Shown: one piece after another, positions 3,261 to 26,100 of the stretch
Layout of the letters: the number at the start of each line of letters is the position of its first letter
Numbering within the stretch: the first letter of the stretch is position 1
Assembly (NCBI GenBank): GCA_032768795.1
Contig: CP136490.1
Coordinates: 5,642,001 to 5,706,000, forward strand
Source: Tremella fuciformis
Taxonomy: Eukaryota; Basidiomycota; Tremellomycetes; Tremellales; Tremellaceae
Reading direction: 5' to 3'
DNA: 64,000 nucleotides
Translations under genes and position numbers: made by a program
Notes under the pieces: generated by a model
Seen by the model: only the letters and a program-made list of their open reading frames with translations
Database searches by the model: none
What the model was told of the DNA's origin: nothing

Positions 3261-3270
3261 TATATATACT
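3261..3270 (+). promoter_or_regulatory. TATA-like box upstream of the peptide gene
   Basis: The run TATATATACT is the clearest TATA-like element before the secreted peptide gene, about 505 bases upstream of its ATG. The stretch between is pyrimidine-rich (many TC and CCCGT words), as in transcribed leaders of highly expressed fungal genes. The implied leader is long and could contain an intron. The assignment is inferred from position and sequence only. Confidence 0.4.
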
Positions 3271-3772: not shown

Positions 3773-4318
3773 ATGAAGCTCTCTATCCTCTTCGGCGCGG
3801 TCCTCGCCACTATCGCCATCGCGGCCCCGGTCGCTCAGCCCTCTGGCGCTACACCCGACGGCTGGGGCGGTGGCGCCAACGGCTGGAAACGCGAGGCTGC
3901 CCCTGCACCTTCGGCTTCTGGCGCCACTGCCAACGGATGGGGCGGTGGTGCGAACGGCTGGAAGCGTGAGGCCGCACCCGAACCCTCCGCCTCTGGCGCT
4001 TCAGCAAACGGCTGGGGCGGTGGTGCCAACGGCTGGAAGCGTGACGCTGCTCCCGAACCCTCCGCCTCTGGCGCATCAGCAAACGGCTGGGGCGGTGGTG
4101 CCAACGGTTGGAAGCGTGCTGCTGCAGCTGAGCCCTCCGCCTCTGGCGCGTCTGCAAACGGCTGGGGCGGTGGCGCCAACGGTTGGAAGCGCGAGGCTGC
4201 GCCTGCGCCTGAACCTTCCGCCTCTGGCGCATCGGCAAACGGCTGGGGTGGCGGTGAGTCTCCTGCACATCGCATCGCATAACGCACGGGCTGACAGTCA
4301 GGCGCCAACGGCTGGTAA
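3773..4318 (+). CDS. secreted Kex2-processed tandem-repeat peptide precursor (pheromone- or quorum-peptide-like)
   Basis: Predicted 165-aa secreted precursor with one intron (4254-4301, 48 nt). Residues 1-17 form a signal peptide with an A-x-A cleavage site. Six copies of a glycine/tryptophan peptide ending ANGWGGGANGW follow (the first copy starts PDGW). The first five are each followed by Lys-Arg, a Kex2 site, and the sixth ends in Trp directly at the stop codon. The spacers (E/D/A)AAPxP-SA consist of X-Ala and X-Pro dipeptides, suiting Ste13-type dipeptidyl aminopeptidase trimming. The predicted product is SGASANGWGGGANGW or close variants. The layout matches ascomycete alpha-pheromone precursors; the Trp end and Gly content also recall the Cryptococcus Qsp1 peptide, but I claim no homology. 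No Cys and no CAAX box occur. The ATG at 3773 is chosen because the signal peptide starts there. Function is unknown. Confidence 0.88.
3824..4315 (+). repeat. six tandem peptide-coding units, 75-nt period
   Basis: The Lys-Arg codons start at 3887, 3962, 4037, 4112 and 4187, an exact 75-nt spacing. The first unit follows the signal peptide and has its own spacer. The sixth unit has one extra Ala-Pro dipeptide and is interrupted by the intron. Differences between units are mostly synonymous or fall in the spacer, whereas the GWGGGANGW part is invariant in protein. That suggests selection on the peptide, recent unit duplication, or both. Confidence 0.9.
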
Positions 4319-23174: not shown

Positions 23175-26100
23175 CTAGACTTTCCACGTATCCGGGCCGA
23201 AGTAGCCCTTTTCAGGAATGGTGCGGTACGCTACGCCATTATAATCGCCCGCTGAGTCATCAGCACCGACTCTCTGGACAGCGAGGAAGAGGGACGCACT
23301 GTTCTGGTACACCGTGTTGCCCCACCAGTTGACGTTGATCTTGGCGAGGCCAAAGACGAGGAAGAGCACGAGGGCGCTGAGCGCGGTGCCGACTTCGAGA
23401 GCGGCAGAGAGGACGTAGTTGTACTTTGACCACCAGGCGAAACGGCGCCTGCGAACCCAGAACTGGAAGATGAACGACGTGACGAGCCACGCGGCGTAGT
23501 TGATGCCGGTGGCGGGCGGAATGGAGAGGGCGCCGTTGAAGATGACGGCGAGGTTGACGTTGCGAAGCACAGAGTCGCGGTACTTGCGCGTCCAGAGCCA
23601 GACGGGGATGGGGAGGACGGCCCCGGCGAGAATGGCCCACAGCTGAGGGTGGTAGAGAGCGCCCTTGGAGAAGAGACGGGCTGGACCGACGAGCGACCTG
23701 ACACAACGTTAGCCGACACGCCTGAATGGGAAAGGGTGGGACTGACCAGATGATGCTCGAGGTGTAGAACACGCGAGCATTAGAACAGTTCAGCAGGTTC
23801 GCCTGTCCAGAGTGGCAGATATCCGGTACGGTGGCGAAGAGAAGTTCTTTGGTGCCGATCTGGATCAGACCAGCGACGATAGTGGCGGACAGCTGGGCAA
23901 TGAAGGTTGAGCGAGGCGGAATCTTCATGTAGTGACCAAGTTTCTGGTCCGACACAAAGTAGAGCGCTTCGTACAAAGTGTAGACTGAGAACGACTTGGA
24001 CACCTAGCTTGTCAGCGCGTGTCTTTGCATCCCCGGTCCGTTGAACTGACCATGCCGGCAATCGTCTTGCCCTGAAAGAGGTAACCGGGGATGAGCTCGG
24101 CAAGCAGGTTGATGGCGACCGTCTGATTGGTCATGGCATAGATGAAGGCAGCGGGAATGAGATAGATGAGAGGCAGGAGGACCGATATGATGTATCCCCA
24201 AACGGGCAACTCGGTCTTGTACTTCTCGATGATCGCCACAGCCATGATGAAAGTCGCACCGAGCAGGATGAGGAACCACCAGTCGGGTACTTCTGGGTAC
24301 TTGCGCATGAGCTTCATGTGAATGTCCTCGATCTCGGTGCGCATGTTCCGGATCGTCTTCCAGATACGTGGACCGTGGAACAGAAGCGTGTGCATGAGCA
24401 GCGCAGTCGAAAGGGCAAAGGCGAGCATGAACGTCATGGAGAACGAGGCGGACAAGTACACCGGCGAGTACTCGGCGTAGGCCGTCTCGTTGAGCTGCAA
24501 GTCGGCAGTGACGATGGCCGAAGTCTCATAAATGTCACCGAAGCGGTCGGCGGCTTGGACAGTGCTGATCGGGATGTAGCTGAACTCCCAAACCTGGATG
24601 TCAGATACACCAACAATCAGCATGACTGCACTCACATTGGTGTAGTACAGGATCGGAGTGATGATCCAGTAAAACAGAACAAAACCAATGGCGATGTTGG
24701 CAGCGGCCCACCAAGGGGTGGTGAGGGGACTGCCAATGTAGGCAATTTGCACCCAATCGAATGTGAGGATCCCCATGCCAAGCCCCGTGGAGACACCAAA
24801 GAGCTGGTTGACAACGATGTTGTCCGGCACAATCCAGCAGGCATACGAGAAGTATGAGAGAGCGGTGAACAGATATCCTGTCTGTTCAGCTTAGGCCAAT
24901 CAGCCGGCAAGGAAGCTGACCTGGAAGGAAATACCAAGCAAAGGCAGCCCCACCAGCGACGAGCAAGAACTTGAGGCGACTCATGCCACCGTGGAATCCA
25001 TCTTCTTCGGCATGGAATGCGTTCAAGTTGGTCGCAATGACAAGGTTTCCAGGCCAAATCATACTTGCGGGGAAAACGACGAATCGCCTGGCGAGACCAG
25101 CAAAGGCGAAGCCGGTAAGCTGGGTGGAGAGCAGGAAGAAGATGTTGAAGGCGATGCCAAGAGGGTGCTCGTACCATTTCTCGAGGGAGACGATTGCGTA
25201 CATGGCGTATGCCGGCGCCAGACCGACGTTGGCCATCATGACGATGATCGTGTGCTCCTTGATGTTGAAGGGGCCGGGGTTCAGGGAAAAAGACCGGCCG
25301 GTCAACCAGCTCGGCAGGTAGAACGTGCGGATGGGCAACAGCCAAGCGAAGAACTTGCCGACAGGGTATGCGGCGACCTGAACCAGGAGAGGGGAGATGT
25401 AGGGCGAGGGGAAGCGGAGGAAGAAGAAAGTGTTGAGAGCCGTGCCGAGGATGGTGAAGATCATGCCAATGACGAATGCTCGAATGGTGAGGGCTGGGCG
25501 TAAGCAAGACGTAGAGAACATCGTGCGGACGTTGCTCACCAGGCATATCCGGGTCATCAATGTTGGAGACTGAGGCTCGCACTTCAGCATACGGACTGTC
25601 CTCCTCTGCCATGTCAAAGTCGACGACGGCTTCTTCGCCGACCTCGCTGTCCTTTGCGATCCCTCCCATACCATCTCCCCAGGTAGTCTTGCCATCGGGA
25701 ACGGTCATGTCGCCCGTCAACTCGGTCATGCCATAACTGCCTCGACTCATGCCACGCCTTGTGCCGGTGCCGGTGCCAGATTCGCTGGTGAGGGCAGTCT
25801 CACTGTCTGCGCCAGAGATGAGAGGTTGTGACGAGCGCATGCGACGGGTGGCATTGGTAGGTCGTGTGGTGGGTCCTTCTCCGCTGGCATACGATCCAGT
25901 TTCCGACATTGCCTCAGACTCGAAGGATGTTCGCGAGTCTTCGGTGGTGGTGAAGTGAGAAGTGCCGGTCATGGCGGTGGTCGCGGTGCCCATCTTCCTC
26001 CTCTGCATGCGATTAAAGAGCGAGCGTCCGGTCTGGGGCCTGGACGGCCCGCTCGACGCGGAAGCCGCCGCATTGTCTCTCGCTTGACGGGCGTTGATAG

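Follow-up and report, generated by a model that had tools for sequence, protein, structure and literature searches.

A tandem-repeat precursor of alpha-factor type and its sister gene in an apparent basidiomycete: candidate sources of a non-mating peptide signal

Alpha-factor precursors possess a long pro-region ahead of copy 1, and the alpha peptides of filamentous ascomycetes often begin and end near Trp. The form expected of a basidiomycete pheromone is a tandem precursor with CAAX ends. In the tremellomycete Cryptococcus, the secreted quorum peptide Qsp1 is Gly/Ala-rich, ends in Trp, derives from a single-copy precursor and acts after uptake by Opt1, an OPT transporter.

Kex2-processed repeat proteins (KEPs) are defined in the main text of Le Marquer et al. 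2019 (PMC6339444) by a signal peptide without a further membrane segment, by repeats covering no less than 15% of the protein, and by KR/RR cutting into at least four fragments, at least three of them similar. A subset carries a STE13 signature, in which XA/XP dipeptides, often repeated, come directly after the Kex2 site; Ste13-type dipeptidyl aminopeptidases act on X-Ala/X-Pro dipeptides (PMC6339444). According to the same text, the mating pheromones of basidiomycetes are regarded as exclusively a-type and lipid-modified, yet some of these fungi retain alpha-factor-like precursors. Basidiomycete KEPs with STE13 signatures are described there, including a Trichosporon oleaginosus KEP whose peptide, QSWGGCGGRGTPCW, ends in Trp. 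STE13-signature KEPs are argued to be good hormone candidates, with an effector role kept open, and the signature is given as missing from cyclic-peptide precursors and from Ustilago Rep1, a basidiomycete KEP with 37-aa peptides that controls hyphal wall properties (PMC6339444).

The precursor gene described here (gene 1) lies in a stretch of 64,000 nucleotides, hereafter the window (C1:5642001-5706000), of a 28.14-Mb genome in 11 contigs. The original prediction placed at 3773..4318 a precursor with six peptide copies, KR after the first five and a Trp-stop end, all of which spliced translation confirms. The spliced CDS (3773-4253 + 4302-4318) encodes 165 aa with a signal-peptide-like start, six copies, KR after copies 1-5 and a sixth copy that closes with GGGANGW-stop. 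The features, with spacers and cores as read from the translation, are as follows.

3773..4318, plus strand: precursor gene 1
3773..3823, plus strand: predicted signal peptide MKLSILFGAVLATIAIA, from a hydropathy proxy, with a putative cleavage between AIA and AP placed by the Ala-X-Ala rule for signal peptidase
3824..3841, plus strand: spacer 1, AP-VA-QP, all X-Ala/X-Pro, its start set by the putative signal-peptidase site
3842..3886, plus strand: core copy 1, SGATPDGWGGGANGW; KR at 3887-3892
3893..3961, plus strand: spacer EA-AP-AP-SA and core copy 2, SGATANGWGGGANGW; KR at 3962-3967
3968..4036, plus strand: spacer EA-AP-EP-SA and core copy 3, SGASANGWGGGANGW; KR at 4037-4042
4043..4111, plus strand: spacer DA-AP-EP-SA and core copy 4, SGASANGWGGGANGW; KR at 4112-4117
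4118..4186, plus strand: spacer AA-AA-EP-SA and core copy 5, SGASANGWGGGANGW; KR at 4187-4192
4193..4318, plus strand: spacer EA-AP-AP-EP-SA (one dipeptide more) and core copy 6, SGASANGWGGGANGW, split by an intron and with KR absent; stop at 4316-4318
4254..4301, plus strand: predicted 48-nt GT..AG intron (GTGAGT...CAG) inside copy 6, whose splicing rebuilds the repeat exactly

Copy 6 hinges on this splice, since the unspliced frame meets a stop at 4282, and we infer the removal of 4254-4301 from the exact repair of the repeat. The 75-nt repeat of gene 1 scores 500 in TRF, the highest of 6 rows in the window, the remaining rows scoring 50-59. Among the 15 pairs of gene 1 cores, the coding frame has a pS of 0.394 vs a pN of 0.036, a roughly elevenfold excess; copies 3-6 show zero amino-acid changes at a pS of 0.343, and the KR codons after copies 1-5 vary by silent changes only. 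The other two forward frames have a pS of 0.062 each, with pN of 0.174 and 0.165. The antisense frames give pS/pN of 0.053/0.161, 0.276/0.087 and 0.015/0.172, so that in one of the three pS likewise exceeds pN, by roughly threefold, a weaker version of the coding-frame pattern. Judged by this sequence evidence, the array varies as coding DNA does and the gene is real. The signal peptide named in the original prediction stands as far as a hydropathy proxy reaches: the peak hydropathy of the N-terminal 25 residues is matched or exceeded by 4 of 238 window ATG ORFs of at least 60 aa, a set that appears to include gene 1. By inspection, a TATA-like stretch lies at window 3261-3268, ~0.5 kb 5' of the start codon.

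All six gene 1 spacers (APVAQP, EAAPAPSA, EAAPEPSA, DAAPEPSA, AAAAEPSA and EAAPAPEPSA) are of even length with Ala or Pro at each second residue and split without remainder up to Ser-Gly, and spacer length varies just once among copies 2-6, by a complete dipeptide. Each of the five KR sites is followed by 4 or 5 X-Ala/X-Pro dipeptides, as in the STE13 signature. Because the spacers are rich in Ala and Pro, the dipeptide arrangement has a P of 0.07-0.21 per spacer given composition; these values are not to be multiplied since the copies are related, and a six-spacer product of 3.9e-6 was dropped as a P value because of that shared descent. The spacers correspond to the alpha-factor "STE13 signature" and predict a 15-mer, SGASANGWGGGANGW, plus two single variants: the three core forms are SGASANGWGGGANGW in four copies and SGATPDGWGGGANGW and SGATANGWGGGANGW in one each. 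The main 15-mer is uncharged, hydrophilic on average (GRAVY -0.49) and, judged by eye, not amphipathic; across the gene 1 15-mers the charge is 0 or -1 and Cys is absent. An internal ANGW-GGG-ANGW doublet had been proposed as the peptide itself, and it is exact in five of the six copies, copy 1 reading PDGW-GGG-ANGW.

A second gene was found by a whole-genome protein search on the same contig, 383 kb from gene 1 and on the opposite strand.

L002:1369-1992, minus strand: sister precursor (gene 2), 207 aa, a frame without an intron
Peptide forms besides the gene 1 15-mers: EWSGWGSGAKGW and QWGGWGTGAKGW

The sister product has a signal-peptide-like start, six GWGxGAKGW copies, five KR sites and one RR site, and a C-terminal tail, EELALDQ, after the last KR. 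Its copies are of two alternating kinds, EWSGWGSGAKGW (three) and (L/Q/R)WGGWGTGAKGW (three), which alternate with short and long spacers that are acidic at their start. The two precursors are 47% identical in a MAFFT alignment, a figure raised by the repeats. A GWGxGAxGW codon pattern has 11 matches in the 28.1-Mb genome, five in gene 1 and six in the sister, and none outside the two genes, and the reversed pattern has none; gene 1 contributes five rather than six because its sixth core is split by the intron. The feature common to both genes is, on these sequences, GWGxGAxGW and not the exact ANGW doublet. The A(N/K)GWK(R/S) codon pattern likewise has 11 matches genome-wide, five per gene and a single isolated one at C1:6308820-6308836, which we take as chance. 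A Trp-Lys-Arg triplet pattern gave three overlapping matches, all in gene 1, with none in the control, and missed the sister since its site spacing is beyond the pattern range. Within 700 bases, the promoter words common to the two genes amount to one 10-mer and none longer; a TATA-like stretch was seen by inspection ~0.29 kb 5' of the sister start codon (upstream of L002:1992).

Processing appears to divide the pair. After all six sister cleavage sites the next two residues are something other than X-Ala/X-Pro (DN, DD, DD, DE, DD and EE), so the STE13 signature is absent, and Ste13 trimming after Kex2 is therefore predicted for gene 1 only and not family-wide. Right after its signal peptide the sister does carry APIAAPVA, which splits as AP-IA-AP-VA. 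A dipeptide stretch in that position is thus not special to copy 1 of gene 1, and the copy 1 spacer is, as sequence evidence for Ste13 trimming, weaker than the other five. The dipeptide spacers, and the retention of the core and of cleavage sites in the sister, strengthen the case for an alpha-type tandem precursor.

By the KEP definition, KR cutting of gene 1 gives six fragments with the core in each, and cores account for 54.5% of gene 1 and 34.8% of the sister. Gene 1 does not have the form of a CAAX pheromone, ending in NGW-stop and starting like a signal peptide. By homology it does not fall among the alpha-pheromones either: a Pfam scan (E up to 10) gave no alpha-factor match and returned DUF6199 alone, at a chance-level E of 4.5. 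The sister had no Pfam match, and PDB sequence searches found 0 matches for either precursor. The core-plus-KR pattern had 0 matches in viral and 0 in prokaryote contigs, as expected of a fungal gene and uninformative on fungi. A genome census of KR-Asp/Glu triplets gave four matches, all in one C10 repeat, vs three in the reversed control; it is insensitive and silent on KEP number, since it missed both known genes. The C10 repeat is a 57-bp tandem repeat at C10:163391-163683 with copies identical where shown.

Gene 1 resembles ascomycete alpha-factor of the MFalpha1 type in its predicted signal peptide, KR-separated copies, Ste13 spacers and KR-less C-terminal copy. Unlike alpha-factor, it has a different peptide sequence and no Pfam alpha-factor match, in a genome where STE2 went undetected in an uncontrolled search; a long pro-region before copy 1 is also lacking. 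Like Qsp1, the predicted product is a Gly/Ala-rich peptide of secreted type with a final Trp, but gene 1 is multi-copy whereas the Qsp1 precursor is single-copy. The T. oleaginosus peptide shares Trp-Gly-Gly and the final Trp with SGASANGWGGGANGW, in which Cys is absent; unlike the T. oleaginosus KEP as described in the main text of PMC6339444, gene 1 comes with a sister gene that has no signature after its cleavage sites. The term "unreported", as applied to this class in the original prediction, was too strong given the basidiomycete STE13-signature KEPs of Le Marquer et al. 2019 (PMC6339444). The string ANGW does not occur in the main text of that paper, and the same peptide may stand in its Table S2. 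The layout is already known in basidiomycetes; what is new here is an added member with a sister gene, and the sister gene is the freshest element of the finding.

Rep1 offers one alternative, in which the Gly/Trp-rich peptides would serve to cover or order the cell wall and not as a signal. Like Rep1, gene 1 would be a basidiomycete KEP, Rep1 governs hyphal wall properties (PMC6339444), the main 15-mer is uncharged, and a six-copy layout would fit bulk supply. Rep1 as described there, however, lacks the STE13 signature and yields peptides of 37 aa, vs 15 aa here, and the gene 1 peptide is hydrophilic on average and not visibly amphipathic. We regard a structural or surface role as rather unlikely.

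The genome encodes enzymes that could carry out the predicted processing. In the profile searches, in which the best candidates were scored so that locus counts are lower bounds, a Kex2 gene was recognised at C3:1.058-1.060 Mb, where Peptidase_S8 and P-domain exons lie together, and at least one PF00930 (DPPIV_N) locus was found at C4:1.311 Mb. In exon 1 of the latter the domain is preceded, by eye, by a basic stretch and by a hydrophobic segment, and the enzyme is apparently membrane-anchored; this is the topology of Ste13/Dap2. As processing enzymes are near-universal, with 15 of 250 catalogues lacking at least one of them according to the main text of PMC6339444, these genes are weak evidence. 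Thymidylate synthase exon 1, searched against the PDB, scored highest with 2aaz (288 bits), followed by 1ci7 (241), among the best 60 of 117 matches. As 2aaz is a Cryptococcus neoformans entry, the genome is likely that of a tremellomycete.

The STE3 model identified at least two loci, one at C8:0.794 Mb and one at C2:1.207 Mb. A pheromone precursor candidate lies next to the first.

C8:790801-790971 (L023:6801-6971), minus strand: CAAX pheromone precursor candidate with two tandem units, each ending in CVIA, ~3 kb from the STE3 gene

This candidate is an ORF pattern match chosen by eye from two fitting ORFs in 30 kb of sequence surrounding both STE3 loci; the other, L024:1945-2016 (ending in CSSV), was dropped by eye. 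No CAAX-pattern ORF was found at the C2 STE3 locus. The claim that an apparent basidiomycete carries alpha-pheromone architecture is upheld by the KR repeats and dipeptide spacers of gene 1 in a genome with at least two STE3 loci and a CAAX candidate. A rival reading of this architecture is a true alpha-type mating pheromone that would act through a STE2-like or another pheromone receptor. Gene 1 agrees with alpha-factor in its predicted signal peptide, its repeats with KR sites, its dipeptide spacers and its KR-less last copy, and Trp near both ends is common in filamentous ascomycete alpha peptides. Against this, the STE2 Pfam model had 0 matches in the genome, vs two loci for STE3 by the same method (the STE2 controls were prokaryotic and none matched either), a CAAX candidate sits ~3 kb from a STE3 gene, and gene 1 is on C1 whereas the STE3/CAAX locus is on C8. 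A mating role is accordingly highly improbable.

From its sequence, gene 1 would be an alpha-factor-type KEP whose peptides are probably an extracellular signal other than a mating pheromone, which is the most likely of the explanations considered. A non-mating signal is favoured because a CAAX pheromone candidate and STE3 receptors are already present in this genome.

The surroundings of gene 1 bear on two further alternatives. Pfam neighbour scans covered 17 of the window's 73 stop-to-stop ORFs of at least 180 aa, along with 5 of 15 (L026) and 5 of 13 (L025) ORFs of at least 150 aa. A CLASP/HEAT gene lies near gene 1 on the minus strand. Four of the five L026 upstream ORFs had no Pfam match, and the fifth had a sub-threshold match. 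The two neighbours relevant here are listed below.

L026:3684-4514, ~9 kb upstream of gene 1: 2OG-Fe(II) oxygenase sub-threshold match (23.5 bits, cut-off 31.2)
23355-25491 of the window, minus strand, 19 kb downstream of gene 1: OPT oligopeptide transporter gene (profile match)

The oxygenase would be a possible but unconvincing tailoring enzyme for a secreted peptide aimed at other organisms, whether antimicrobial or directed at a host or competitor, and an effector role is left open for such KEPs in the main text of PMC6339444. The gene 1 15-mers, however, have a charge of 0 or -1 and no Cys, the 10 window and 5 upstream ORFs first scanned contained no further tailoring-type Pfam match, and the UstYa-family model had 0 matches in the genome in a search without a positive control. 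We consider a target outside the species distinctly unlikely. A dikaritin-type cyclic RiPP reading was set aside as weak on the same uncontrolled UstYa result.

The OPT gene suggests a special case of the favoured non-mating signal, namely a quorum-type peptide imported by OPT with the gene 19 kb away as its partner. The genome has at least four OPT loci; were there just four, one would fall within 19 kb with a probability of ~0.5%, a figure that more loci would raise, and Qsp1, too, is Gly/Ala-rich and Trp-ended. The proximity was noticed post hoc, however, and the OPT count is a lower bound. Other ORFs intervene across the 19 kb, the sister has no nearby OPT gene (the nearest found is ~0.4 Mb off), and a peptide of 15 residues is long for an OPT substrate. 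By analogy with Qsp1, import through this transporter is conceivable though unlikely, and its link to the precursor is speculative.

Under the favoured explanation, in which gene 1 encodes a non-mating extracellular signal, the precursor would enter the secretory pathway, and Kex2 would cut after each of the five Lys-Arg, as the sites and the Kex2 gene suggest. Kex1-type removal of Lys-Arg belongs to the known pathway; a carboxypeptidase of this type would trim the cut copies, and copy 6 would need no such step. A Ste13-type dipeptidyl aminopeptidase, to which the spacers and the DPAP gene point, would then remove three to five X-Ala/X-Pro dipeptides and stop at Ser-Gly, leaving six near-identical 15-mers, mostly SGASANGWGGGANGW. 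The sister would give related GWGxGAKGW peptides via Kex2, its cleavage sites being followed by no dipeptides of the Ste13 type. The peptides may be sensed via some receptor or, as for the Cryptococcus quorum peptide, taken up.

More tentatively, the two genes may form a Trp-Gly peptide family that serves as a second, non-mating signalling channel in a tremellomycete-like yeast, with gene 1 processed via Kex2/Kex1/Ste13, the sister via Kex2 without Ste13, and the signal received by an undescribed receptor or through nearby OPT import. If this possibility were true, two genes would yield differently trimmed peptides, and one message could be tunable by the protease set. A defined 15-mer and a sister gene, in a genome with STE3 and a CAAX candidate, make the non-mating role directly testable by synthesis and deletion.
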